Shown here one piece after another: positions 150-13,132 of a stretch of DNA of 64,000 nucleotides. The DNA lies in the NCBI RefSeq assembly GCF_010093045.1, contig NZ_CP048115.1:1674001-1738000 (forward strand), given 5' to 3'. The notes under the pieces are model-generated. The model searched no databases. It was given only the letters and a program-made list of their open reading frames with translations, and was not told where the DNA came from. A program made the position numbers and the translations under genes. Positions within the stretch are counted from its first letter, which is position 1; every line of letters begins with the position of its first letter. Source of the stretch: Mucilaginibacter sp. 14171R-50. Lineage in GTDB: Bacteria; Bacteroidota; Bacteroidia; Sphingobacteriales; Sphingobacteriaceae.

Positions 150-950
150 TTATTTTTTAAGATTTACTTCTGTAACGGCTGTACGGCGGGTTGCCGTGTA
201 AACTATACCATTCACTATCTCGTACCCGGTAGATACACTTTGCGAATATCGTTTCAATATGATGCCGGTGTTATTGTCTATCAATATTGAGCCATTGATC
301 CTGCTATTTAAGTTTTGGCCAAGGATGGAAGTTTTATAGGTGATGGTGATAGTTCGCCCGTTAACGGCGTATACAGTATATGTAGTTGTTTTTGATGGTG
401 TATTATCTGTCCATGAATAGCCTTTTTTTAGCGAAGGGTTAACAGCGAAGTTGGCCATGAATTGTAATATCGCCCCGGGCACAAGGCGCTCAAGTTGTAA
501 GCCGGTAAATGATAACAGAGTATCATTCACAGTAGCGGCGCGTTTTACATTAAATATTTCGCCTTTGTTATTTACCGTAATTGTAGGGGATGTTTTTGCT
601 ATTTTCTGCAGGTTTACCTGGATATCTGAGGCCGGATCGGCTGGTTTTTCTGAATGATATATCATGGTCTGGTCCATAGCATTAATAGTATCTGTCAGTT
701 TGTCTGTTGTGATGATCATGGTGGCCCCGTTTTCAGAAGCATCGGTTACCTTATAGGTTTTTGCCACAATGGAAGACGAACTGACGTGCAGGCTTTGCCC
801 GCCTCGTTGCATTACACAGTTAGATCTGGTGAGTACCTGTCGTTGAAATTCATCCCCCTTTTTGAACCTCACCTGTGCGCACGCGGTGTTACTGATATGA
901 GCTAACAGTATAATTAGCAGCCAGTTTGATTTTATTAGCGCGGCTCTCAT
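150..950 (-). CDS. Exported protein of unknown function, DUF6263-like
   Basis: The product has 266 residues and begins with a signal peptide (hydrophobic LLIILLAHIS, cleavage probably after the ACA before QVRF). The rest is beta-rich, with many Thr, Ile and Val strands, and resembles the DUF6263 family of secreted Bacteroidota proteins; that match is from memory and tentative. It has no lipobox and no catalytic motif that I recognise. It is the last gene of a tight three-gene operon read leftward, its ATG lying 2 bp after the stop of the preceding gene. The operon carries the same promoter module as the LuxR regulator gene at 4836-5480, so it may be a target of that two-component system. Confidence 0.7.
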   Translation of the reverse strand: MRAALIKSNWLLIILLAHISNTACAQVRFKKGDEFQRQVLTRSNCVMQRGGQSLHVSSSSIVAKTYKVTDASENGATMIITTDKLTDTINAMDQTMIYHSEKPADPASDIQVNLQKIAKTSPTITVNNKGEIFNVKRAATVNDTLLSFTGLQLERLVPGAILQFMANFAVNPSLKKGYSWTDNTPSKTTTYTVYAVNGRTITITYKTSILGQNLNSRINGSILIDNNTGIILKRYSQSVSTGYEIVNGIVYTATRRTAVTEVNLKK

Positions 951-952
951 CG

Positions 953-1618
953 TTAGTGTTTTTGTTGGGTACTATACTGATAATAAAACACTTGTATGAT
1001 GGGGTCATCAGGAATGGGCCACGGGATAAGGCCATTGCCGGCAGGCAGCGACAGTGGGCTGGGGGTTACTATGTCGGGCATCAATAAAATCGCCCGTTGC
1101 GTGGAATTTGCACCAGATGATACCGGCTGTTTTGGCGCAGGCGGCATTTGAGGCTCTTCCGGCATTGGTACTTCTATTGTAGCAGGCACCGCCGCGTCCT
1201 GTAAGCTTAGCTGGGGCAACGGTGGCATATCCGGTGCAACAGGTAGCGGGATGTCTGCCGAAGCAGCTATAGTGCTGGTGGCTGCCGGCTGGTCGGGATT
1301 ATTTACCGCAGGTGATACCCTTGATATTGCAGCTAACACCGGCGATTTTACGGGCGATACTAATGGCAATGCCACGCCGGGGATATCGATCAGGATCAGT
1401 GAGACAGATTGCTCTGTTCCGCTTTTGCCGGTGGTGGTGCCTTTTGTTATAGTGCCAGGTGGCAAAGGCGGCGGTACACGCCAGTCTGATAAATTACCAC
1501 GCTGGGCTAAAGCGGGGGTTACCGAACCCGTAATGGCCAGCAACAGCAAGATAAGCACAGGCAGCGATACTGGCCGCCTGTTGTTGTTTGTTGCTATGCG
1601 AGGGTATGTTGTTTTCAT
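953..1618 (-). CDS. Proline-rich exported protein, unknown function
   Basis: The product has 221 residues. An N-terminal hydrophobic segment (VLILLLLAITGSVTPALA) looks like a signal peptide or anchor. The mature part is unusually rich in Pro, Ala and Ile, with PPLPPGT, PMPEEPQMPPAPKQP and similar tracts and no Cys, so it is probably an extended periplasmic or surface linker rather than a globular enzyme. It lies between two other exported-protein genes with 2-bp gaps on both sides, so the three are very probably co-transcribed and translated together. I do not recognise a family. A periplasm-spanning spacer role is possible but unsupported beyond composition. Confidence 0.65.
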   Translation of the reverse strand: MKTTYPRIATNNNRRPVSLPVLILLLLAITGSVTPALAQRGNLSDWRVPPPLPPGTITKGTTTGKSGTEQSVSLILIDIPGVALPLVSPVKSPVLAAISRVSPAVNNPDQPAATSTIAASADIPLPVAPDMPPLPQLSLQDAAVPATIEVPMPEEPQMPPAPKQPVSSGANSTQRAILLMPDIVTPSPLSLPAGNGLIPWPIPDDPIIQVFYYQYSTQQKH

Positions 1619-1620
1619 CT

Positions 1621-2460
1621 CTATCTGTTTACAGAAAGCGGATAACTTATACTGAATGTAGAATTTGGTTTATTTGATGAATATCTTGTTACATTGTCTA
1701 TACCTATACCAATAGCCAAAGGGCTATGTAACGGTTTGATACCAAGCGAAAAGCCCAAATTTATACCCGACCATTCAGTAATAAAATTAACTTTTTTTAT
1801 CAGTTCGTAGGATATACTTCCAAATATTGCCGTCCCGTGCGCGCCTCTGCCCGCTTTTATATCATCCGGGCTTTTATGATAAAAGCGCCCGTTGCCAATA
1901 CCGATGGTATAAGTAAGTTTTGAGCTGCCCGGCGTTGCAGAGGGCAGGCTTTGTATGGCATGGCTAAAAGCAAAATAAAAGGTTGACCCCGGCGCATCAG
2001 ACTGAATTTTGCTTGCAAATAACTGTAAGCCGCCAACAGCGATGCTGCTGCCTGTAAATATCTGCCTGCTTACCACAATATTTCCGGAAAAATCACTGCT
2101 TGTTGAAACGTCCGCAGAGTTGATCCCAACAGCAACGTTTACAATCTTTTGAGGATCTCCGACGCAGAATCCTGCAAATGTTATCAGATCACCTGTTTTT
2201 GTATAGGCTTGAGGGTAAACTCCCCCTATGCCTCCAAATATGTATGTGCCAAAACCGCCCCATCCTGAGGGTGATATCAGGTTTTGTAGTACATCATTGG
2301 GCAAAAGTTCATCTCTCAAATTTTTGGTAGTGCCCTGGCTCAATAGTGAATCCAACCCTGTCTGCAATTTACGTTCAAATGTACTTTGTGCGTATACTGA
2401 ACCTGACCAAGCGAGGCTTAAAAAAGCGATCATAGCAAATGTTTTTGGTCTGTAATGCAT
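1621..2460 (-). CDS. Exported protein, probable beta-barrel, unknown function
   Basis: I start the gene at the ATG at 2458-2460, because the peptide then begins with a signal sequence (MHYRPKTFAMIAFLSLAWSG, cleavage near VYAQS) and has 279 residues. The frame is open upstream to a GTG/ATG near 2550, but that extension has no signal-peptide character. The mature protein has alternating strands and Gly-rich turns (GGFGTYIFGGIGGVY, TYTIGIGNGRFYH) and ends in a strand-like SYPLSVNR, which suggests an outer-membrane or surface beta protein. It is the first gene of the operon continuing to 150. A promoter/operator module lies upstream at 2559-2607. Confidence 0.65.
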   Translation of the reverse strand: MHYRPKTFAMIAFLSLAWSGSVYAQSTFERKLQTGLDSLLSQGTTKNLRDELLPNDVLQNLISPSGWGGFGTYIFGGIGGVYPQAYTKTGDLITFAGFCVGDPQKIVNVAVGINSADVSTSSDFSGNIVVSRQIFTGSSIAVGGLQLFASKIQSDAPGSTFYFAFSHAIQSLPSATPGSSKLTYTIGIGNGRFYHKSPDDIKAGRGAHGTAIFGSISYELIKKVNFITEWSGINLGFSLGIKPLHSPLAIGIGIDNVTRYSSNKPNSTFSISYPLSVNR

Positions 2461-2558: not shown

Positions 2559-2607
2559 TAAAGCTACACTTTTATCATCGCTCAAAAAATACCAACCACT
2601 TTGTATT
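2559..2607 (-). promoter_or_regulatory. Promoter plus palindromic operator shared with the LuxR regulator gene
   Basis: Read on the minus strand, an imperfect palindrome AATACAAA-N4-TTGGTATT (2588-2607, one mismatched pair) is followed after 21 bp by TAGCTTTA (2559-2566), a reasonable Bacteroidota -7 box. The same arrangement with the same spacing occurs at 5493-5541 in front of the response-regulator gene; 34 of the 49 positions are identical without gaps. Outer TAC and GTA triplets in inverted order are typical of NarL/LuxR-family response-regulator sites. The palindrome centre would lie near -45, where an activator would bind. Inference only; no binding data. Confidence 0.6.
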
Positions 2608-2717
2608 GCCTGCTCTTTCCGCTCTCTCTAAAATTGTTCTGTCTGAAAAACAGTGGACTAAGTTATCCGGTGCATTGGGGTGCGTAGTCTTTACTGTCTA
2701 TCTCAAATTAAATTATT

Positions 2718-2927
2718 ATGAAATATCTGGAGTATTTAACCTATGCTGTCCCTGTTGTTTTTATGGTATTGTCGCGCCTGTCCCTGCTTCGGTACAAAAA
2801 GCTTAAAGATAGTGGCAGGGTACCCGAAATTGTTTGTGCCAGACAAAAGCAAAACCTATTTCTTTTTTTGGCGATAACAACTGCGATGATAATAGTTATT
2901 ATTCAACTGCAGCTATTTGATTTTTAA
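2718..2927 (+). CDS. Small two-helix membrane protein, hypothetical
   Basis: This is a 69-residue frame with two hydrophobic segments, about residues 5-22 (EYLTYAVPVVFMVLSRLS) and 48-66 (LFLFLAITTAMIIVIIQL). A basic loop with many Lys and Arg residues lies between them, as expected for an inner-membrane hairpin. It is alone on its strand between the divergent operon at 1621-2460 and the histidine kinase at 3055. I see no family. An overlapping frame at 2606-2806 has no such order and was rejected. The membrane pattern is the main argument that it is real. Confidence 0.45.
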   Translation: MKYLEYLTYAVPVVFMVLSRLSLLRYKKLKDSGRVPEIVCARQKQNLFLFLAITTAMIIVIIQLQLFDF

Positions 2928-2996
2928 TAATACGCTGCCTGGGCACGTCGCCCTGTAGTTTTAGGGCGGCAGGCGGCGGGCATGGAGCGGCGCGAG

Positions 2997-3004
2997 TATA
3001 TTTG
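2997..3004 (+). promoter_or_regulatory. Possible -7 promoter element of the sensor kinase gene
   Basis: TATATTTG matches the Bacteroidota -7 consensus TAnnTTTG and lies 51 bp before the kinase ATG. The -33 region at the expected distance is GC-rich and has no TTTG, so a weak or activator-dependent promoter is possible. Confidence 0.35.
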
Positions 3005-3054
3005 ATAGGATCATTTTATAATTATTATCTTTAACAGGGAACCACTATCCGGAT

Positions 3055-4830
3055 ATGAAATATCTCTTTTGTTTTTTCCTGTTGTTAACTGCGGTTGAAT
3101 GTTTAGGTCAAAATATTGATAGTTTAAATAAAATTGTGCTGGGCAATGCGCCGGTTCAAAAGCGGCTAAATGCTGCTATAAAGGGTTCCGGGCATCCGTC
3201 TGTAAAAAACGCTAACGATGTACTAACCATTGCAAAACCCGGGCTGCGCCTTGCTGTAAGGTCGGGCAATAAGCCCGCTGTTTCCCTGTTGTCGGTGAGC
3301 ATGGGTAAGGCTTATTATTTTTTAACACGTTATGATTCGGCGGCATATTATTATGACGCTGCAGCCAATGTTTCGGACAAGTCCCTTAAAGAAAATGTTT
3401 TGCCTTACAATTATGCGGAGCTGGCAAAAGCCTACGCCCTGCAAAAGAATTACGATAAAGCGATAGAGCTTTATAACAAGGCGATACTATATGCACCTGT
3501 AACGGGGCCGCGGCGCCTGCCCATGGCTGCTCTTAATAAAATAGGTGAACTGTATGAAGCTAAACGCGATTACCAAAATGCTTTAAATTATTTCAGACGG
3601 GCTTACGATATCAGCGACTCGTTAGATCTTGTGGAAAGAACAAAGAAAAATACATCTGAAGCTTATAGCCGCGACTTTATTGGTGATGTGATGGAAGGTA
3701 TGAGGCACAAGACGAGTTCGGTAGAGGACATTTTAAAGGCCATCGATACAAAAAAAGCTATTAACGATACGCTGGCGCTTACCATAAATTATTTTAACCT
3801 GGGCATATTATATAAAAGCAAGCAGCAATATGGCCGGGCACTGGAAGCATTGCAGGAGTGTTTGCAATATGCTACTAACATATATTATACAGAGATGCAG
3901 GGGAGTGTGCTGAACGAGTTAACAGACCTTTATGAGCAGGTGGGCAACCACCGTCAGGCGCTGGTTTATTTAAAGAAGCGCATAGCATTGAGTACCCCGG
4001 GGAGCAACCATATTTCAAAAACAATGGACGAGTTGCAAACCAAGTATGAGATAACGCAGCGCGAAGATCAGGTGCTGCGGCAACAATTTGAAATTACCAA
4101 GCGCAACTACTGGGTGGCCGGTATAGCTGTTGTTGCCATGCTGATGTTTTTAACAGGCTATATATATTATAAACAAACACGGTTAAGGCAGCGCAATATT
4201 GCCATGCAGGCTATTATTGCTACTGAAGAGAGCGAACGAAAACGGATAGCCCAGGACCTTCATGATGGCGTGAGCCAAACCATGACTGCTGCCAAGATGA
4301 GCCTGAGAGCTATTGCAAATGAGATGCCTTTTGTAAACGATGAACAGCAAAAACGGTTAGAGAAAGCGATCAGCCTGGTTGACGAAGGTTTCAGGGAGGT
4401 AAGAACCATATCGCATAACATGATGCCGTGGGCGCTTAATGAAACCGGCCTGGCCACGGTTATTAAACAATTTATATCTAACATCGAAAACCAGGCAATT
4501 ACTATCAACTTTTTTTGCAAAGGATTTGATCAGCCATTTAATGATACAGTTGAAATTATTTTGTACCGGGTGTTGCAGGAAAGCTTACATAATGTAATGA
4601 AACATGCCAGTGCCAGCCGGATTGATATATCATTGATAAAAGATGAGCAAGGCAATATCAGTTTAACCATTGAAGACAACGGAAAAGGATTTGACGCCGC
4701 CCGCCCCGAAACATACCAGGGGATGGGCCTTAATAACCTGCGATCGCGTATAATTTTTTTGAAAGGGAAAGTCGAACTATCTTCTAAAATAGGTCAGGGC
4801 ACGCTGGTTTCTGTTTATGTACCGGCGTAG
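3055..4830 (+). CDS. TPR-containing sensor histidine kinase (HisKA_3/LytS-NarX type)
   Basis: The product has 591 residues. It begins with a signal peptide (MKYLFCFFLLLTAVECLGQ), followed by a periplasmic region of tetratricopeptide-like helices (about 25-330, e.g. AKAYALQKNYDKAIELYNKA). One membrane span follows near 352-371 (YWVAGIAVVAMLMFLTGYIYY). The cytoplasmic kinase has a HisKA_3 dimerisation helix with the phospho-acceptor His in IAQDLHDGVSQ, and an HATPase domain with an N box (LQESLHNVMKHA) and G boxes (DNGKGFDAA, GMGLNNLRSR). Such kinases phosphorylate LuxR-type regulators. The regulator gene lies just downstream and converges on this one, with 5 bp between the stop codons. The ligand of the TPR sensor cannot be read from sequence. 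Confidence 0.93.
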   Translation: MKYLFCFFLLLTAVECLGQNIDSLNKIVLGNAPVQKRLNAAIKGSGHPSVKNANDVLTIAKPGLRLAVRSGNKPAVSLLSVSMGKAYYFLTRYDSAAYYYDAAANVSDKSLKENVLPYNYAELAKAYALQKNYDKAIELYNKAILYAPVTGPRRLPMAALNKIGELYEAKRDYQNALNYFRRAYDISDSLDLVERTKKNTSEAYSRDFIGDVMEGMRHKTSSVEDILKAIDTKKAINDTLALTINYFNLGILYKSKQQYGRALEALQECLQYATNIYYTEMQGSVLNELTDLYEQVGNHRQALVYLKKRIALSTPGSNHISKTMDELQTKYEITQREDQVLRQQFEITKRNYWVAGIAVVAMLMFLTGYIYYKQTRLRQRNIAMQAIIATEESERKRIAQDLHDGVSQTMTAAKMSLRAIANEMPFVNDEQQKRLEKAISLVDEGFREVRTISHNMMPWALNETGLATVIKQFISNIENQAITINFFCKGFDQPFNDTVEIILYRVLQESLHNVMKHASASRIDISLIKDEQGNISLTIEDNGKGFDAARPETYQGMGLNNLRSRIIFLKGKVELSSKIGQGTLVSVYVPA

Positions 4831-4835
4831 CGGTG

Positions 4836-5480
4836 TTACAGATTATACTGCAATATAAACTTGGTCAACTCAACCGGGTTTTTCAAACTCAACTTTTGCA
4901 TAATGTTCTTACGGTGGGTCTCGACAGTGTAAATACTTAAGTTAAGATGATCGGCCATTTGCCGGTTTGTATAATCCTGCTTAATGAATTGTAGTAGTTC
5001 CAACTCTCTTTTTGTGAGTTGAAATTGTTTTAAAAAAGGGTCTGGTTCATCAAATGTTGAATTTACTGCGGGTATTTTATTAGGGAAAGACGCCCGTCCC
5101 TGGGAGACCGACTGGATCAGATTGAGTAATTCATCTTTCTCGGCATTTTTAAAAACGTAGCCATCAGCTCCGTAGCTCTTAGCTTTTTCGATCAGGTATT
5201 CTTCATTGTATGTAGAAAGCATGACGACCTTGATTTTTGGATAGCAATCTTTTATTTTTTTAAGCGCTTCAAAGCCATTGATACCCGGCATGTTAATATC
5301 CAGCAGTATCACCTGGGGCGTTTGAGTTTGCAGTATACTTAATAGTTCGCGCCCATTGCCCGCGATAGCTGTGATCTGGATATCCGGCTCATTTTCCAAT
5401 AACATACGAAGCCCGTTTATAAAAAGGGTGTGGTCATCTGCTATGATAACTGATATCTTTTGGGCGATAGGGGTTTCCAT
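4836..5480 (-). CDS. LuxR/NarL-family response regulator
   Basis: The product has 214 residues in two domains. The receiver domain (about 8-125) shows the acidic pair IIADDH, the phospho-acceptor Asp in VILLDINMPG and the conserved Lys in YVFKNAEK. The C-terminal LuxR helix-turn-helix (about 148-212) contains LTKRELELLQFI and the recognition region LSIYTVETHRKNIMQKL. It is the obvious partner of the histidine kinase at 3055-4830, although the two genes are convergent rather than co-transcribed. Its own upstream region holds a perfect palindrome also found upstream of the 150-2460 operon, so autoregulation and control of that operon are likely. The 5' leader after the inferred -7 box would be very short. 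Confidence 0.93.
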   Translation of the reverse strand: METPIAQKISVIIADDHTLFINGLRMLLENEPDIQITAIAGNGRELLSILQTQTPQVILLDINMPGINGFEALKKIKDCYPKIKVVMLSTYNEEYLIEKAKSYGADGYVFKNAEKDELLNLIQSVSQGRASFPNKIPAVNSTFDEPDPFLKQFQLTKRELELLQFIKQDYTNRQMADHLNLSIYTVETHRKNIMQKLSLKNPVELTKFILQYNL

Positions 5481-5492
5481 CTTTCAATAATG

Positions 5493-5541
5493 TAAAGTTA
5501 AACTTTATCACCTCCATAAAAAATACAAACTGCTTTGTATT
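5493..5541 (-). promoter_or_regulatory. Promoter plus perfect palindromic operator of the LuxR regulator gene
   Basis: Positions 5522-5541 form a perfect inverted repeat, AATACAAA-N4-TTTGTATT. On the minus strand it is followed after 21 bp by TAACTTTA (5493-5500), a near-consensus -7 box. The latter is itself embedded in a palindrome TAAAGTT-A-AACTTTA (5493-5507). The module is repeated at 2559-2607 with identical spacing. The site lies between the regulator gene (leftward) and the 5622-8181 operon (rightward), so it may control both. The likely binding protein is the regulator itself; this is inference from position and symmetry. Confidence 0.65.
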
Positions 5542-5621
5542 GTGTGGCTTAGCGCGGCGACATAACATTGTGTTACCAACAATTAACACAGTCGCCATAC
5601 ACAAAACCGAACCTATTGCCG

Positions 5622-6380
5622 ATGAAAAAGCTAATTACCACACTCGCCGCAATGCTGTTTTGCCTTACGGTGCTTGCTCAACAAAGCGCCGCGCAAATAA
5701 CTTACAACAGGCATGCCTTGAATCTCCGGGAACAGGACGAACTTTACAGGGACGCGCTGAAAAATGACCACGTGACGCCCGGTTTTGTTTCGCCCGTGTC
5801 TGTACAATTGCTGTTGGGCAGCCAGGGTGTAGGTGCGGATATTAAATACGGATTTTTGCCCAGGTTGTCGGGCCGGGTCGGTTTTGGAATAATCCCGGTG
5901 AATGCCGGCCGTAATTTTCACTTCTCCTCGTTCAAGGTTCATGGCCAACTTACCTCACGCTTCTCCAACTTGCATTTACTGGCTGATTATTCACCATTCG
6001 CAACGCAAAGTATCCGGGTAGTAGGCGGGGCATCATACCTGATAAAGGGAAACGCCAATGTAATAATATCGCCAACCGGCGGATACCATATAGGTAGTAG
6101 GTCGGTAACCAAAGATCAATTAGGCGCCATATACGCCAATGCCTACTGGAAGGGACTGGCGCCCTACCTGGGTATAGCCTTATTCAGGGACTTTCCAGAC
6201 AAGGTCTTTAACGTCAATTTAGATATTGGCAGTTACTATCTGTCAAGCCCCGCCACGTCATTTACCGGCACAGAGCTTTTGTCTGATAATGACGATAACG
6301 CTAAACAATTTAACAAAAATATGAGCGGCTACCGCTGGCTGCCGGTTGTTCAGGTCAATTTTAATTTCAGGCTTAAATAA
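5622..6380 (+). CDS. Exported probable outer-membrane beta-barrel protein
   Basis: I start it at the ATG at 5622 because the product then begins with a signal peptide (MKKLITTLAAMLFCLTVLAQ); an upstream in-frame extension to 5568 lacks such features. The 252-residue product has alternating Gly and aromatic strands (SVQLLLGSQGVGADIKYGFL, GRVGFGIIPVNAG) and ends VVQVNFNFRLK, a strand-like outer-membrane C-terminus. It probably forms a small barrel of unknown function. It is followed after 10 bp by the lipoprotein gene at 6391, so the two form an operon. It is divergent from the LuxR regulator gene and shares its operator region. Confidence 0.7.
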   Translation: MKKLITTLAAMLFCLTVLAQQSAAQITYNRHALNLREQDELYRDALKNDHVTPGFVSPVSVQLLLGSQGVGADIKYGFLPRLSGRVGFGIIPVNAGRNFHFSSFKVHGQLTSRFSNLHLLADYSPFATQSIRVVGGASYLIKGNANVIISPTGGYHIGSRSVTKDQLGAIYANAYWKGLAPYLGIALFRDFPDKVFNVNLDIGSYYLSSPATSFTGTELLSDNDDNAKQFNKNMSGYRWLPVVQVNFNFRLK

Positions 6381-6390
6381 ACTATCACAA

Positions 6391-8181
6391 ATGAAAACAC
6401 ATACAAAATCCAACGATCAGGAAATATCGCGAAGGATAATTATAGGGTTATCTTCTATCGCGGTGTTGCTTACCGTAACCTTACTTATACTATCGGTAGG
6501 TGGTTGCAAGAAACCAAATGAAGACATAAAGCTAAACGTGAACGAAAGCTCGCTTACAAAGGCACCGGTATTAGTGCATTTCGCCAATGCGAATGTAAAT
6601 TCAATGAACCAGCCGCTGGACTTTGACGTAGAGATAACCGGTAAGGATGCCGCACTGGTACAAATGGACGGCGGCGCTACTTCTGGTTTTAAAGCCTCAC
6701 ATGGTTTCCTGCCATTGTCGTTATTACGCGAGGCTTCACCATCGGCAACTTCGCCGGTAACTTTTAATGTTTCGGCGCAGATACCGGGTTTTGCACCGCT
6801 GGTGCAAACCATTACCATTACAAAAGATACAGCAACCATTGTGGATATCGGTGCTATCGAGTATGCTCATCCACCAAAAGGTACGGCTGTGCTTACAGCG
6901 GTATCGCCATTGTCAAACGGTGTTTCAAACGGTGCCACGCTGAATTTGCAGGCGGGCGCCGGCATGGTAGAGACCGCGCAAATAAACATACAGCCCGGCA
7001 CCCAAATGCTCGACCAGAATAATATGACTATAAATGCGGGTCAGTTGTCATCAAACATTGTTAATTACAGCGCCACCTCTACAACCTCCTACGGGGCTTT
7101 TCCGGGCGGCTTCAGCCCCACAAACGTGGTAGATGCAACCGGGAAACAGGTAAACGGGGGATACCCGATCAACTTCGTATCGGCGGGCCTGCTATCCATT
7201 AAAATGACAGCCGGGGGCACCCAGGTAAGGCATTTTTCAAAACCATTAAAAGTAACGATGAAGCTTGACCCACATACTACAAACTTTGTTACCGGTAAAG
7301 ATATCAAAGCCGGAGACACTGTACCATTATGGAGCCTCACTGAAGAAACCGGGCAATGGAAAAGCGAAGGCGATGTAACCATAACAGCAGATGGATCTGG
7401 TAACCTGGTGGCCATTTTTGAAACTTCACATCTTTGCTGTTTTAACCTCGATTGGAGCTGGGCAATAACCGGACGCCCCTACGGCACTTGTTTTAGCCCG
7501 TTAACTGTACGTATACATTGCGGCGCCGGTAACAGCGGTATTTACGACGTTACCATTTGTACGCCAAACAATCAATACCTGGCGGGCGCCCATGGCGAAT
7601 ATGTGCACGATGGAGACGTGGTCGTTTTCCCTTCTGTACCAAACATTGAGCAATGCAAAGTAGTGATAAGTGGTTTTAACCTTTATCTTAACCCCGGCCT
7701 GCCTATACTTGCCCAGAGTCAGTTATTCAATCCATGCAGCCAGGGTGCTATTGATCTTACATTCGGTACCCCACCGGCCAACCCTACATTTGTTAACGTA
7801 AACTTCAATATTCAAGGTCATTGCAGTAACAAAGCTATCAACTTGCTGCCTTCGGGGTGGTTCTTTCTTTACGATGCCGGCGCTGCAAAGATCAACCAAA
7901 ACCCATGGACGTACATATATGTAAGCAAAGGTGTTATCAAATATGCATTTGGTACGGGTATAACAGGCGGTGGCGGCAGCTATCACATCCAACTTTTTGC
8001 CGGCGACCAGTATTACATGTACACCTATAATAGTTTTGAATGGTATGAATCAGCCCTCTTTACTATGGCTGCGCGTAATTTTGATTTTCCCTCGCATAAC
8101 GGCATCACCGGTACAGCTATTTATGATGTACCCAGTAACTCCCTGAATATAAACGTCAAGTTCAGTGTACACTGTCGTTAA
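6391..8181 (+). CDS. Large lipoprotein of unknown function
   Basis: The gene is started at the ATG at 6391, 10 bp after the barrel gene; the frame extends upstream into that gene without a better start. The 596-residue product has a basic N-terminus, one hydrophobic segment (IIIGLSSIAVLLTVTLLILS) and a lipobox-like VGGC followed by KKP, typical of Bacteroidota lipoproteins. The mature part begins with a beta-sandwich-like segment (about residues 40-140). The C-terminal half has several Cys residues (LCCFNLDW, GTCFSPL, IHCGAG, TICTP), unusual for a lipoprotein of this group and suggesting disulfides. No catalytic motif was recognised. With the 5622 protein it probably forms a surface module controlled by the neighbouring two-component system. 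Confidence 0.7.
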   Translation: MKTHTKSNDQEISRRIIIGLSSIAVLLTVTLLILSVGGCKKPNEDIKLNVNESSLTKAPVLVHFANANVNSMNQPLDFDVEITGKDAALVQMDGGATSGFKASHGFLPLSLLREASPSATSPVTFNVSAQIPGFAPLVQTITITKDTATIVDIGAIEYAHPPKGTAVLTAVSPLSNGVSNGATLNLQAGAGMVETAQINIQPGTQMLDQNNMTINAGQLSSNIVNYSATSTTSYGAFPGGFSPTNVVDATGKQVNGGYPINFVSAGLLSIKMTAGGTQVRHFSKPLKVTMKLDPHTTNFVTGKDIKAGDTVPLWSLTEETGQWKSEGDVTITADGSGNLVAIFETSHLCCFNLDWSWAITGRPYGTCFSPLTVRIHCGAGNSGIYDVTICTPNNQYLAGAHGEYVHDGDVVVFPSVPNIEQCKVVISGFNLYLNPGLPILAQSQLFNPCSQGAIDLTFGTPPANPTFVNVNFNIQGHCSNKAINLLPSGWFFLYDAGAAKINQNPWTYIYVSKGVIKYAFGTGITGGGGSYHIQLFAGDQYYMYTYNSFEWYESALFTMAARNFDFPSHNGITGTAIYDVPSNSLNINVKFSVHCR

Positions 8182-8376: not shown

Positions 8377-8381
8377 ATCAG

Positions 8382-8455
8382 TAGCGGGGAGCAGGATCGA
8401 ACTGCCGACCTTAGGGTTATGAATCCTACGCTCTAACCATCTGAGCTACCCCGCC
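8382..8455 (-). tRNA. tRNA-Met (anticodon CAT)
   Basis: The minus-strand sequence folds into a full cloverleaf of 74 nt. The acceptor stem is GGCGGGG with CCCCGCT and discriminator A; the T arm has a 7-nt TTCGATC loop; the anticodon loop reads ATTCATAA with anticodon CAT. CCA is not encoded. I call it elongator Met because the acceptor stem is fully paired at its first base pair, unlike initiator tRNA; a CAT anticodon with lysidine modification (Ile2) cannot be excluded by eye. Its 5' half is duplicated at 13247-13286, which marks it as the integration target of the element on its right. Confidence 0.93.
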
Positions 8456-8456
8456 G
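8417..8456. repeat. Left attachment repeat (inside the intact tRNA-Met)
   Basis: This 40-bp segment equals 13247-13286 exactly. It covers tRNA positions 1 to 39, from the 5' end to the anticodon loop, plus one base upstream. The crossover therefore lay in or before the anticodon loop, a usual site for tyrosine recombinases. Confidence 0.9.
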
Positions 8457-8526
8457 GGTTATATTCTCTGCTGAATATCAGTCTTTATATCGTTAGCCGC
8501 ATCCGGCATTATTCAGCTTCCAAACC

Positions 8527-8548
8527 TGTTAACGGTTTTGTTAACGGT
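8527..8548. repeat. Two tandem TGTTAACGGT motifs, probable integrase arm sites
   Basis: TGTTAACGGT occurs at 8527-8536 and 8539-8548 in direct orientation, about 70-90 bp inside the left attachment repeat. A third identical copy in the same orientation lies at 13133-13142 inside the right end. Paired distal sites on both sides of the core are how many tyrosine integrases bind their att sites. Confidence 0.55.
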
Positions 8549-8569
8549 CGCCCTTTCGGGCGTGGAGCG

Positions 8570-8602
8570 CAAAGGTAACAAACAATGGCATAAATTTACA
8601 AT
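8570..8602 (-). promoter_or_regulatory. Island-borne promoter for tRNA-Met
   Basis: On the minus strand ATTG, 21 bp, then TACCTTTG (8570-8577) matches the Bacteroidota promoter pattern. Transcription would start near 8563 and give a leader of roughly 100 nt containing a GC hairpin (8549-8562) before the tRNA. The promoter lies inside the island, whereas the original-looking tRNA promoter is now at 13313-13344 beside the tRNA fragment. Confidence 0.55.
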
Positions 8603-8717
8603 ATTTTTCACTTTTGTATTTAACTGGGTGGATAAGGGATGGGTTTGTTTGTGATCGATAGAAGTTCATAAATCCGCTAATTTAATTAATGCTAAAAGTA
8701 TTTTAAAGTCATTTATT

Positions 8718-8733
8718 TTTACATTTATGTAAA
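8718..8733. promoter_or_regulatory. 16-bp palindrome before the SIR2 gene
   Basis: TTTACAT-TT-ATGTAAA is a perfect inverted repeat ending 10 bp before the SIR2 ATG. Its TACATTT portion could also be a degenerate -7 box. A repressor acting here would cover promoter or start site. The HTH protein encoded just downstream is one candidate, but no evidence links them. Confidence 0.4.
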
Positions 8734-8743
8734 TCTTATTGAC

Positions 8744-10243
8744 ATGAATATCTCTGAATTTATTTCGCAATATAAAAATCATCCTGTTTTATTCATAGGA
8801 ACGGGGTTTAGTTTACGCTATCTGCGAAATTCTTACACATGGGATGGTTTACTTGCTAAAATCGCTTTCGATCTTAAAGGCAACAACGAATATTACCTTG
8901 ATATAAAAGCTTCCAGCGAAGAAAATGGGAAATATAAATTCGAAATGATTTCGAGTAAACTTGAAATGGAATTTAATCGTCAGTTACAGGAGGAGCGAAA
9001 CGGCAAATTCAAAGATATTAACGACATCTTCTATGAAAACATGGCAAAGGGAGTTAATTTAAGCCGATTTAAAATTTATATAAGTCAAATATTTTCAACG
9101 CTTGATTTTAGACCTGAAAAAGCAGATGAATTATCTGAACTCAAAAAGATCAGAAAAAATATAAGTTCTATTATCACAACAAATTACGATAATCTTATAG
9201 AACAGACATTTGAATTTAATAAATTGATAGGCAATGATATACTTTTAAGCAATCCTTATGGGTCTGTATACAAAATACATGGATGCCGTACATTGCCAGG
9301 AAAGCTTATTATTACAACAGAAGATTATCAAATTTTTTTTCAAAAGTATGAATTAATAAGAGCGCAATTGTTATCGCTGTTCATTCACAATCCAATTATT
9401 TTTTTTGGATATAGTATTGGTGATGAAAATATTAAGAGTATTTTGAAAACAATCTTTACATACATAGAACCAAATTCCGAACAAGCAAAAAAAATCAGGG
9501 CGAATTTCTTGCTCGTAGAATACGATTCAGGCTCGATGTCTAACGAAATTGTTGAGCATGATATTGACATGGAAGGGTTTAGCACAATAAGAATAAACAA
9601 AATTAGGACCGATAATTTTTCCGCAATTTATAACTCGATATCAAGTCTGCAATTACCTATTTCTGCGATGGATGTGAGAAAGGTGCAGGCGGTAGTGAAA
9701 GAAATATACTCTGGCGGAAATATTGCAGTGAAAATTACTGAAGACCTCGATCTGCTGGGAAATGCGGCAAAAATATTGGCCATTGGGACAGACCGTACAA
9801 TAAAATATGATTACTTAACGAGTTCTGAAACTTTAGCTAATTATTTCAAATTAATTGATGAAGCTAATTCGCAGACGGTGGGATTAATCGACAAATACGT
9901 TATACCGAAGACCCAATATTTTCCGATTTATGGATTTAATCTAATCAATGCCAACTTAACATCAGCCGCTGCTTTAAAAGAAAATCAGAAAATCAAAATT
10001 CAAGGATATTTGGCAGATGTTCCCGCTGCTTGTCAAACACTCCACGCTACAGTACAAGGAATTTTAGATGATAATTCGGTGCCTAAAAGTTCAAAAAGCA
10101 GAGCAATCTTTTGGTCTATAATGAATGATAAGGTTAGCATAGAAGACACAGAAAAATATTTACGGGATTATAATAACAAAAAAAATACTGAATTTAAAAG
10201 AATGCTATCCGCTTACGATTTTAAGAAATTTAGTAAAGAATAA
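8744..10243 (+). CDS. SIR2-like domain protein, probable NAD-consuming defence effector
   Basis: The product has 499 residues. A SIR2-like Rossmann domain fills about residues 10-300: GTGFS (19-23) for nucleotide binding, TTNYDN (145-150) with the catalytic-type Asn147, KIHG (177-180) with His179, and FFGYSIGDENI (220-230). These are the landmarks of the SIR2_2 family, whose members in several anti-phage systems (DSR, Thoeris ThsA, SIR2-pAgo) hydrolyse NAD+ to stop infected cells. The C-terminal 200 residues match nothing I know and may be the sensor. The gene is AT-rich compared with flanking genes and sits in a tRNA island. Its TAA overlaps the ATG of the following HTH gene (TAATG), suggesting translational coupling. 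The fold is clear; the defence role is inference. Confidence 0.85.
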   Translation: MNISEFISQYKNHPVLFIGTGFSLRYLRNSYTWDGLLAKIAFDLKGNNEYYLDIKASSEENGKYKFEMISSKLEMEFNRQLQEERNGKFKDINDIFYENMAKGVNLSRFKIYISQIFSTLDFRPEKADELSELKKIRKNISSIITTNYDNLIEQTFEFNKLIGNDILLSNPYGSVYKIHGCRTLPGKLIITTEDYQIFFQKYELIRAQLLSLFIHNPIIFFGYSIGDENIKSILKTIFTYIEPNSEQAKKIRANFLLVEYDSGSMSNEIVEHDIDMEGFSTIRINKIRTDNFSAIYNSISSLQLPISAMDVRKVQAVVKEIYSGGNIAVKITEDLDLLGNAAKILAIGTDRTIKYDYLTSSETLANYFKLIDEANSQTVGLIDKYVIPKTQYFPIYGFNLINANLTSAAALKENQKIKIQGYLADVPAACQTLHATVQGILDDNSVPKSSKSRAIFWSIMNDKVSIEDTEKYLRDYNNKKNTEFKRMLSAYDFKKFSKE

Positions 10244-10516
10244 TGGAAGTTACCTGTTTTGAGGATCGCGCTTTTTTTGCAATGATCGATAAGGTTGAAG
10301 CTTATATCGACAGCAAAAAGCCTAAACAATCACAAGACGACAAATGGGTTTCCGGCGAGGAAGCCATGAAGATGTTACGCATCATCAGCAAAACCACGGT
10401 GCAGAAATTCCGTGACGAAGGAAAATTCCCTATAGCAGCCCGAGAAAAAAATTATCCTATACGATGCCGACAGCATCAGGGATTTCATTGAGGATTTTAC
10501 TTATGAAACTTTTTAG
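10243..10516 (+). pseudogene. HTH (excisionase/MerR-like) DNA-binding protein with frameshift
   Basis: The frame starting at 10243 encodes a helix-turn-helix domain (WVSGEEAMKMLRIISKTTVQ, then KFRDEGKFP). It leaves the expected frame at a run of seven A (10445-10451). Reading on in the +1 frame gives IILYDADSIRDFIEDFTYETF with a stop at 10514-10516, exactly the tail expected for this family. One extra A therefore explains the break; the uninterrupted protein would have 90 residues. As written the frame stops at 10491 with an 82-residue product. It may be true decay, a slippage site or a sequencing error. Related small HTH proteins are common in Bacteroidota mobile elements and act as regulators or recombination directionality factors. 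Confidence 0.65.
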
Positions 10517-10518
10517 CT

Positions 10519-10740
10519 ATGCAGGAAGAATTAGACACATCGCCTGAATATATCAAGGGCTTTAATCAGATGTACAAGCTAAGACAAGAAATGCCGGAAG
10601 TTGCACAATAAATGCTATCTGCTAAAGCCGAGAGTGACCACTTCAAAGGTATGGTTGCAGGAGCGAAACAAGTCGAACTCGAATGTATCCGGGAAATTTC
10701 GGAGAAGGGTCGAAATCAATCCCGCGAACGGGAGATCTAA
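10519..10740 (+). pseudogene. Small hypothetical gene interrupted by an in-frame stop
   Basis: An ATG at 10519 opens a frame (MQEELDTSPEYIKGFNQMY...) stopped by TAA at 10609-10611. The same frame resumes at once with ATG (MLSAKAESDHFKGMVAGAKQ) and runs to TAA at 10738-10740. Both halves are charged and helical. I recall small Bacteroidota proteins with a TPEYIKGFNxGY start and a later FKxGxxQ segment next to such HTH genes, so the two pieces are probably one 73-residue protein split by a point mutation. It starts 3 bp after the intact end of the HTH gene. Function unknown. Confidence 0.45.
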
Positions 10741-10756
10741 TTTGGCGTAGGTTATA

Positions 10757-10981
10757 ATGATCGACTTTAACAGTATATGGATAGATATTGAATGTCCCCA
10801 ATGTAAATACATTGATGAAATTCAACTTATTGACGCAAAAGCTGAAAAACTGCGTTTTTGTAACAATTGTAAAGTAAAAATTCAGCTAAAAGACAGCGAC
10901 GGATCTGTCCATAGTAATATCGAAACAATAAACAATGCCTTTAAAGGTTTAGAAGAAATATTCAAGAAAATCGGGAAATAA
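10757..10981 (+). CDS. Small zinc-ribbon protein linked to a nuclease gene
   Basis: The product has 74 residues with two CxxC knuckles, Cys13/Cys16 and Cys35/Cys38, spaced as in a zinc ribbon, followed by a charged helical tail (NAFKGLEEIFKKIGK). Its TAA overlaps by 1 bp the ATG of the nuclease-like gene (TAATG), so the two are almost certainly translated together and their products may form a complex. I recognise no named family. A nucleic-acid-binding or regulatory subunit is the simplest guess. Unlike the two small genes before it, this one is intact. Confidence 0.7.
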   Translation: MIDFNSIWIDIECPQCKYIDEIQLIDAKAEKLRFCNNCKVKIQLKDSDGSVHSNIETINNAFKGLEEIFKKIGK

Positions 10982-11934
10982 TGTACTATAATCACAATAT
11001 CAGAACAAGTTTACAAGAATGGAAGGGTAGACTTTATAAGGCGACTAATGAACAGTTTGGGCATCAATTAAAATACTGCATCAATAACATTGAAAAAAAT
11101 AAGCTGCTTTTTAGCTTGATAAGTGATTCCATTATCCAATACCCTTTTAGCCAAGAACAATTAAAAGAAATGGGAGATAATGACTATGGCGCACCGGATT
11201 TATCATTTGAAGATGAAGTGCAACATGCGAGTTACTGTTATCAGTTCTTAAAATATTTTATCCAAGAATATAAAGATTACAATCTGCATCACTATACAAA
11301 CTTTCACGGAGGAAACTTTGAAGAGACTAAAAAAAACGTTATCGAAGAACTGATAACCCCCTTATTTTACTACTTGCATGATAAACTGGATAAATCAAAC
11401 TCAATTGTCTATTTGCTGGAAAAGTACAAAAGAAGGACGGAATGGTTTACCTATAAAGATCTTTTGAAAGAGTACCAAAATGCGACCAAAAGTTATGAGC
11501 AAATTTTTGAGGACGATTTAAGATTATTTCTATTTGATCAAGGGATAGATTATCCATTCTCCACGCCTAAATCGACTTCGGGACGTGGTGATATTATTGG
11601 AGCCATTGAAACTGACGATCCGCTTATCATTGAAATAAAAGTTTTAGATAAAGATAAGAGTTACGGGAAACAAAGAGTAATTGACGGTTTTTCCCAGATA
11701 ATAAAATATACAAATGATTATAGCAAAGATCTTGGCTATCTTGTGATATTCAATACAGACAATATCGAAATAGAATTCGTACTGAACGAAAAGAATAATC
11801 TCTTTCCACCGATGATAAGTTTTAACAACAAAACCTATTTTATTGTGGTAATCAACTTACATACAGGGATATCGGCAAGCAAAATTGGCACCACTGAAGT
11901 TTTAACGATTAACGAAACTGAACTGACGAAATAG
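10981..11934 (+). CDS. PD-(D/E)XK nuclease-like protein, candidate defence effector
   Basis: The product has 317 residues. The N-terminal two thirds (about 1-170) are helical, Tyr- and Lys-rich and unlike any family I know. The C-terminal part has a PD-(D/E)XK nuclease pattern: Glu177 in a helix (IFEDDLRLFL), Asp204 in GRGDIIG, then E218-I-K220 on a strand (LIIEIKVLD), and Gln239 in the following helix (GFSQIIKY), then core strands GYLVIFNT. Such domains occur in restriction enzymes and abortive-infection nucleases. It is coupled to the zinc-ribbon gene before it. The nuclease call is from motifs by eye; target and trigger are unknown. Confidence 0.65.
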   Translation: MYYNHNIRTSLQEWKGRLYKATNEQFGHQLKYCINNIEKNKLLFSLISDSIIQYPFSQEQLKEMGDNDYGAPDLSFEDEVQHASYCYQFLKYFIQEYKDYNLHHYTNFHGGNFEETKKNVIEELITPLFYYLHDKLDKSNSIVYLLEKYKRRTEWFTYKDLLKEYQNATKSYEQIFEDDLRLFLFDQGIDYPFSTPKSTSGRGDIIGAIETDDPLIIEIKVLDKDKSYGKQRVIDGFSQIIKYTNDYSKDLGYLVIFNTDNIEIEFVLNEKNNLFPPMISFNNKTYFIVVINLHTGISASKIGTTEVLTINETELTK

Positions 11935-12095
11935 AATTCAAACCGACCTTTGTACCTACACATTTACTATGCTATAATAGTTAACCTCCAATGATGCAGA
12001 TGAATGTAAACTATTGGGGATATGGGCTTTCTGCTTCAACCTCAAATTTCAAAAATCAAAAAAAATTAAGGCTGACTGTGCTGCTCGGGATAAAA

Positions 12096-12467
12096 TTATT
12101 CTACAGTTTCGTCGCTGTCTTCCATTTTTTCTTCAACTGCTGTTAATGACACAAAAATCGTCATGAAAGAAAAACGGTCTGTGTCAGTAATGTTTCCTCT
12201 ATCATCTAAGTGTACACCATACAGTTTTTCATCCGTATCGTATCTAATATCCCTTATTTCTACTTCGCTAACGGTATATGAACGTTCACCGTACTCATCC
12301 CATATAATTACTATTTCATCACCAATGTTAAATTGTTCATTGGTAGACTTGCCATCTTGACCTTTGACACAATTTTTTATGTGATCCGCACTATCTGTTG
12401 AAAACCCTAACCCGTCAGAACAATTAAATACAAATCGTACGTAATATTTTAAATCATTAATATTCAT
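12096..12467 (-). CDS. Small acidic hypothetical protein of the island
   Basis: I start it at the ATG at 12465-12467, giving 123 residues; the frame extends 7 codons further to a TTG. The protein is acidic (pairs and runs such as EEKMEDSDETVE at the end) and beta-rich, with FNIGDEIVIIWDEYGERSYTVSEVEI and KLYGVHLDDRG resembling a small SH3-like barrel. No Cys pair, signal peptide or membrane segment is seen. It is read leftward like the integrase, in a base composition matching the island. Such orphan acidic proteins can be antitoxins, immunity proteins or phage counter-defence, but nothing here decides among these. Confidence 0.6.
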   Translation of the reverse strand: MNINDLKYYVRFVFNCSDGLGFSTDSADHIKNCVKGQDGKSTNEQFNIGDEIVIIWDEYGERSYTVSEVEIRDIRYDTDEKLYGVHLDDRGNITDTDRFSFMTIFVSLTAVEEKMEDSDETVE

Positions 12468-12542
12468 GTTCTCAAATTTTAGATGCAAAATTAGCTTTAA
12501 GTTTTAGTGTTTCAATCATATAGTATATGAGATTTGGTACAA

Positions 12543-13073
12543 TTAATGAATATTCCGACTATGCCCGGTGCGTAGAAATAGCGTGTAGCGGCGTAGGAAC
12601 TTAACCGTGATTTTAGAAAAGGTTACACCGTTTCCGGCAAATTCATAAAAGCGTTTCAAACGGCTTGTATCTGATTTGCAGACATCGTAATTGCCCAAGG
12701 CCCTTTGTTCGGCCAAATAATTATCGGCAACATCCTTGAACAAGGGCAGCCTTGGCGCAGGAGAAATTTCCTTTACGGGTTTGGGTTTTGTCGCCTCGAT
12801 AATGTCTTCCGCTGAATACTTTTTTGCAGTTTCAAATTCAAGGATTTTTTCATTGATTTCAGCAAGCCTTTTTGTCAGAAAATTGGTTATCCGCATATGA
12901 TGCAGATGTGCCTTTTTTACTTGCTGTTTTGTTGCATCCCAGAAATCGCGGGAGGCAAGAACATTTCCTTCAAAAAGATATGCAGGAATGCCGTTTTGAG
13001 ATACTTTAATACCGATAGGGAAATTGCCGTTTTTGTCTTTGCGGCTCCATGTAACAATTTTTGCGCTGGCCAT
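12543..13073 (-). pseudogene. Truncated tyrosine recombinase (integrase), catalytic domain missing
   Basis: From the ATG at 13071-13073 the product has 176 residues. It contains the Bacteroidota-type arm-binding domain (about 1-75, with GNFPIGIKVSQNGIPAYLFEG and a LASRDFWDATKQQV stretch) and most of the SAM-like core-binding domain (about 108-170: LFKDVADNYLAEQR, ITVKFLRRYTLFLRT). It stops at once afterwards. Family members are about 400 residues and carry the catalytic R...HxxR...Y in the missing C-terminal half. No remnant of that half is seen in 12489-12542. The protein may still bind arm sites but cannot catalyse recombination. It lies beside the right attachment repeat. Confidence 0.8.
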
Positions 13074-13132
13074 GTGAAAAACTTTTAAAGTAAATAAAAT
13101 TGTTTTCCACGCCCCAGTCAAAGGTCGCAATT

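Follow-up and report, generated by a model that had tools for sequence, protein, structure and literature searches.

The nearest characterised analogue of the system described here is FimS/FimR of Porphyromonas gingivalis, in which the kinase carries periplasmic TPR repeats and the regulator binds and activates promoters of surface-protein genes (PMC11053733, PMC1974823). In Escherichia coli, activation by NarL at the 7-2-7 sites of ogt and yeaR needs no more than one site, placed 32 bp from the -10 element (PMC7419079, PMC9314961). On Ti plasmids, tra box I of TraR, one 18-bp dyad between traCDG and traAFBH, serves two divergent class-II operons (PMC3907764). In a limited literature, we encountered no base-resolved operator for a Bacteroidota regulator of the LuxR type that is paired with a TPR kinase.

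Here, we describe two probable palindromic operators that accompany such a kinase and regulator in Mucilaginibacter. The window, meaning the whole stretch of DNA analysed (64,000 nucleotides), contains the following features, in which type A denotes TAnnTTTA boxes and type B denotes TAA[A/C]ATTG boxes.

150..950, - strand: DUF6263 exported protein (Pfam PF19777, 36 bits against a cut-off of 26.7)
953..1618, - strand: PRO, an exported proline-rich protein; proline-rich repeat in relatives
1621..2460, - strand: OMP1, exported, presumed outer-membrane barrel, no family
2559..2566, - strand: type A -7 box TAGCTTTA, 21 bp from operator 1, assigned to the OMP1-PRO-DUF6263 operon
2588..2607, no strand: operator 1, AATACCAA-CCAC-TTTGTATT, inverted repeat with one broken pair, read as two-way
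2629..2636, + strand: type B -7 box TAAAATTG, 21 bp from operator 1, assigned to the small protein/kinase operon
2718..2924, + strand: small membrane protein of 69 aa that opens the kinase operon and contains two hydrophobic stretches
3055..4830, + strand: sensor kinase with signal peptide, TPR repeats, one transmembrane helix, HisKA_3 (His403) and HATPase_c; orthologs known
4836..5480, - strand: response regulator, receiver and GerE/LuxR HTH (NarL type); presumed binder of both operators
5493..5500, - strand: type A -7 box TAACTTTA, 21 bp from operator 2, assigned to the regulator gene
5522..5541, no strand: operator 2, AATACAAA-CTGC-TTTGTATT, perfect inverted repeat, read as two-way
5563..5570, + strand: type B -7 box TAACATTG, 21 bp from operator 2, assigned to the OMP2-lipoprotein operon
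5622..6380, + strand: OMP2, exported; weak CarO-like match (26 bits, below the cut-off of 300)
6391..8181, + strand: LIPO, 596 aa, presumed lipoprotein or exported protein, no family; operon partner of OMP2

The initial annotation of this DNA had aligned segments 2559-2607 and 5493-5541 without gaps at 34 of 49 positions. Our recount agrees, and the value exceeds the best ungapped 49-mer among about 3000 random pairs of regions of the same sizes drawn from the window (at most 32, typically 23-25). Its palindromes, perfect at 5522-5541 and with one broken pair at 2588-2607, were confirmed, as were its two TAnCTTTA boxes on the - strand, TAGCTTTA (2566-2559) and TAACTTTA (5500-5493), each 21 bp off its palindrome. 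A feature absent from that annotation is a second -7-like box at each palindrome, located on the opposite strand and side and again at exactly 21 bp. Since both sides of each palindrome carry a -7 box at 21 bp, the operators appear to be two-way, each forming the centre of two divergent promoters. More specifically, site 1 would face the OMP1/PRO/DUF6263 operon (2460-150) and, as an extension of the earlier reading, the operon of the small membrane protein (2718-2924) and kinase (2718-4830) as its other arm, a position upstream of both operons that is kept in relatives. Site 2 would face the regulator gene and the OMP2/lipoprotein operon (5622-8181). The regulator ATG lies just 12 bp beyond its -7 box (window 5480-5500), with similar spacing in many relatives, so the mRNA leader should be only a few bases long.

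Domain content places the regulator in the NarL/FixJ family. Its PF00072 (95.8 bits) and PF00196 (58.5 bits) matches both exceed the cut-off, its N-terminus is a receiver domain and not an acyl-homoserine-lactone-binding domain, and both NCBIfam and its PDB neighbours, NarL and VraR, point the same way, with NarL the best solved relative. Among 11 orthologs, the HTH helices are largely invariant and the phosphorylation site is intact, comprising D15 D16 (D15 invariant) together with D61, T90 and K111, which are aligned and invariant. The transmembrane helix of the kinase lies at about 353-371; in combination with the signal peptide and TPR repeats, this single helix predicts a TPR sensor whose repeats are probably periplasmic. 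The small membrane protein that precedes the kinase shows 40-52% identity in relatives.

The locus shares with FimS/FimR, a system of the same phylum, a TPR sensor kinase with HisKA_3 and, as proposed here, a DNA-binding regulator that acts on surface-protein genes. However, the kinase scores 59 bits against the NCBIfam FimS equivalog (cut-off 600) and no fimbrial families were found among the cargo in Pfam and NCBIfam, so the system is FimS/FimR-like but not a member. Furthermore, unlike at this locus, no defined palindrome or shared two-way operator for FimR was encountered in the accessible parts of the reports. The operators resemble NarL sites in their promoter-adjacent position and their inverted TAC/GTA heptamers with a 2-bp spacer (TACAAAC-TG-CTTTGTA within 5522-5541), and the distance to the -7 box is 31 bp here versus 32 bp to the -10 element for NarL. 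The NarL heptamer consensus is TACYYMT. The heptamer here, TACMAAS, departs from it, the -7 box is of the Bacteroidota kind, and one site serves two promoters; due to this combination of 7-2-7 spacing with a different heptamer, the operator would work like a NarL site without being one. TraR offers a parallel in layout, as a LuxR-type HTH protein with one dyad for two divergent operons in class-II position. Unlike TraR, which is an acyl-homoserine-lactone receptor, the protein here is a response regulator, and the sensor and regulator genes are themselves arms of the operators.

Housekeeping promoters in Bacteroidota carry TAnnTTTG at -7 and TTTG near -33 (PMC7366714). The boxes TAAAATTG, TAACATTG and TAnnTTTA are each one base off TAnnTTTG, with type A boxes terminating in TTTA instead of TTTG, and their spacing is invariant. 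Judged by box similarity, transcription would start from promoters at the four boxes. With the box assumed to be centred at -7, the operator centre falls near -42 on both sides and its edge over -33, and on type B sides no conserved TTTG was found at -33, where the operator edge occupies the position. A dimer bound there would thus have a sigma-A-type -7 box 21 bp downstream on each side and lie at about -42, where a -33 element would otherwise be. Given the precedents of single-site activation by NarL and of tra box I, we propose dual class-II activation with feedback on kinase and regulator. In this scheme, the probably periplasmic TPR domain of the kinase would sense an envelope or extracellular cue, and the kinase, whose domains and those of its partner are intact, would phosphorylate the regulator. 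Regulator dimers would then occupy both operators, a link that we draw from comparative evidence. From site 1 they would turn on the OMP1/proline-rich/DUF6263 operon and the small-protein/kinase operon, and from site 2 the regulator gene and the OMP2/lipoprotein operon, class-II style in each case. We consider it likely that the NarL-type regulator and TPR kinase activate divergent promoters in this manner, with positive autoregulation, and this one regulator probably switches on its own gene, that of its sensor and those of several exported proteins together. Segment 150-8181 would then constitute a self-amplifying two-component circuit with exported envelope proteins as its output, and may be one sensing and envelope-response system.

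The same operator and regulator could instead act by repression, with the dimer blocking the -33 position of both promoters until the kinase signals. Blocking is possible since the operator edge overlaps -33 on both sides, but type B promoters that lack the conserved -33 TTTG would be weak without an activator. In addition, NarL-type sites at comparable distance activate in E. coli, and FimR is an activator. Repression is thus unlikely, and we retain activation as the preferred reading.

The connection between palindrome and regulator was assessed across 150 Mucilaginibacter genomes with the pattern AATACMAA-N4-TTKGTATT, which itself imposes the invariance of the palindrome among relatives, although not the conservation of the boxes. 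The pattern occurs in 29 of the 150 genomes, with 1-4 sites each; read backwards as a control, it gave 5 matches over all 150. An ortholog of the regulator (70-78% identity) is present in 25 of the 150, and all 25 carry the palindrome, with 74 sites in total, so that the layout is kept in about a sixth of the genus. Lack of conservation in relatives, which the initial annotation had named as grounds for abandoning its proposal, is accordingly not what the congeners display. Among the 125 genomes without the ortholog, the palindrome was found in four, one copy each. One of these, G247, is a draft contig that ends just past the kinase gene (presumably locus L148, judging from its contig number). 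Of the other three, G095, G135 and G157, the last two were retrieved, and neither has a box at 21 bp. OMP1 is present with the regulator undetected in nine genomes, several of them incomplete drafts, and the palindrome is missing from eight of the nine, the exception being G247. This indicates that the operator follows the regulator and not the cargo. Palindrome and regulator co-occur with Fisher p values of 5e-7 (OMP1-bearing genomes) and 1e-24 (all genomes), which ignore phylogeny and overstate independence, as the regulator-bearing genomes may form one clade.

In four genomes (G142, G238, G192 and G089), the kinase and regulator genes lie apart. At the unlinked loci that were retrieved (kinase in four, regulator in three), the operator and both boxes are kept, with one type A box at 22 bp. 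An unlinked OMP1 copy in G208 and G192 has no recognisable operator within 420 bp.

These patterns bear on whether the palindrome could be bound instead by some other DNA-binding protein whose gene lies elsewhere, with the two-component genes just among its targets. Binding of the regulator is a prediction, and TetR-type and other HTH proteins use such dyads too. Nevertheless, the palindrome accompanies the regulator in every genome that has it and is lost with it while the cargo stays, the 7-2-7 TAC/GTA geometry suits a NarL-type dimer, and no other conserved regulator gene was located at all palindrome sites. We regard a different protein as very improbable. The initial annotation proposed that the kinase/regulator pair would control the regulator gene and the 150-2460 operon, and perhaps also the divergent operon at 5622-8181. 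On this comparative evidence, control of all three is strongly supported.

The geometry was examined at 59 sites, comprising those of the window and of the fetched loci, with boxes counted within 110 bp of each site. All 44 type B boxes lie at exactly 21 bp; among type A boxes, 37 lie at 21 bp and 5 at 20 or 22 bp. Much of the spacer between operator and box is unconserved. Downstream of type A boxes lies the regulator or the OMP1/proline-rich/DUF6263 operon; the genes downstream of type B boxes belong to the kinase operon, to the OMP2/lipoprotein operon or to OMP1 operons that stand alone. The operators could be one-way, as the initial annotation had drawn them, with the opposite-side boxes incidental, and some sites do carry a box on one side only. 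These single-box sites, however, are those without a gene on the other side, such as the stand-alone OMP1 sites L105, L107, L110, L115 and L141, where the box is on the OMP1 side only, and at 35 of the 59 sites a type A box is paired with a type B box, both exactly 21 bp away. A one-way operator is therefore hardly credible, and the two-way reading stands.

At loci L109, L117, L118, L131 and L135, another perfect palindrome, near-identical and of the AATACCAAGTAGTTGGTATT type, occupies a position common to all of them, close to a Cys-containing ORF of about 75 aa. It has no -7 box at 21 bp at these five loci and is perhaps the site of another protein.

Within the genome itself, a single contig of 4,535,041 bp scanned by pattern search, AATACAAA-N4-TTTGTATT occurs with at most one mismatch at two places, both at this locus. 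The many random copies that would have counted against the earlier proposal are thus not found, and the regulon in this genome appears local. Six places with 2 mismatches (L003-L008) were dropped as operators for want of a -7 box at 21 bp. Searches of the whole genome for half-site plus box, in either configuration, returned the same two sites together with single 3-mismatch strays. The palindrome count at 3 mismatches in the window alone is not significant (11 of 100 shuffles), so what makes the operators significant is the presence of exact and 1-mismatch copies together with their placement at promoters and their conservation. Chance likeness of two AT-rich intergenic regions, with which the unremarkable 3-mismatch count agrees, has a negligible probability given the genome-wide uniqueness and the conservation of position and boxes in 25 congeners.

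The cargo is less readily classified. Beyond DUF6263 and the sub-cut-off CarO-like match, no informative families were found in Pfam and NCBIfam, and PDB sequence searches with OMP1 and lipoprotein profiles gave no matches. Structure models were too poor for a fold search (mean pLDDT 29 for OMP1 from 4 sequences, 43 for the lipoprotein from 3), due to too little sequence depth. Literature searches returned nothing on DUF6263 and nothing on this system; among the papers listed for LuxR regulators of Mucilaginibacter, none mentions the genus. The OMP1-DUF6263 cargo is also present in genomes without the regulator, which may mean that the regulator captured pre-existing cargo. Several relatives have SusC/SusD genes near the regulator; these were weighed as possible cargo and set aside, as they start about 0.7-1 kb beyond the first small ORF.

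In the stand-alone OMP1 operons of L115 and L071, the middle protein consists of a signal peptide followed by an almost pure proline-rich repeat (PPIPPVPPIPPVPP...), which suggests a periplasm-spanning linker. At the regulator operator of L070, L103, L106, L112, L116, L119, L127, L130, L134, L136 and L139, the first ORF past the type B box encodes a small hydrophobic peptide of the form M-x-Y/D/F-I/L-I-x-T-x-I-I-M-L-x-C-I-x-A-L, ranging from 26 to about 200 aa in length. The same type lies upstream of OMP1 in L071, L115 and L141. In the window, OMP2 takes the place of this peptide after the type B box, and its signal peptide looks similar.

Adjacent to the locus, the window contains a tRNA-Met (8381-8455, - strand), a SIR2_2 protein (8744-10240) and a tyrosine-integrase-like ORF that is truncated (12543-13130). 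The SIR2_2 protein matches PDC-S25, a candidate defence family (E 3e-151). The content of 8381-13130 suggests a defence island at a tRNA.

As a whole, the locus offers a conserved operator whose geometry is fixed. In a genome that consists of one contig, the regulon appears to be complete with two sites that serve four transcription units, and unlinked genes, one-way sites and regulator-free relatives provide natural controls. In culturable Mucilaginibacter, the signal and the function of DUF6263, the OMP1 family and the OMP2/lipoprotein pair can be tested directly, and the locus provides a two-way promoter part of compact size. It is possible, although we hold this tentatively and consider it rather doubtful, that the sensor, the regulator and all cargo form a closed self-amplifying module on one bidirectional operator type, with promoters lacking a -33 element. 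If so, the module could show bistable switching and thereby control an undescribed structure of the envelope, which OMP1, OMP2, DUF6263, the lipoprotein and the proline-rich protein would build.
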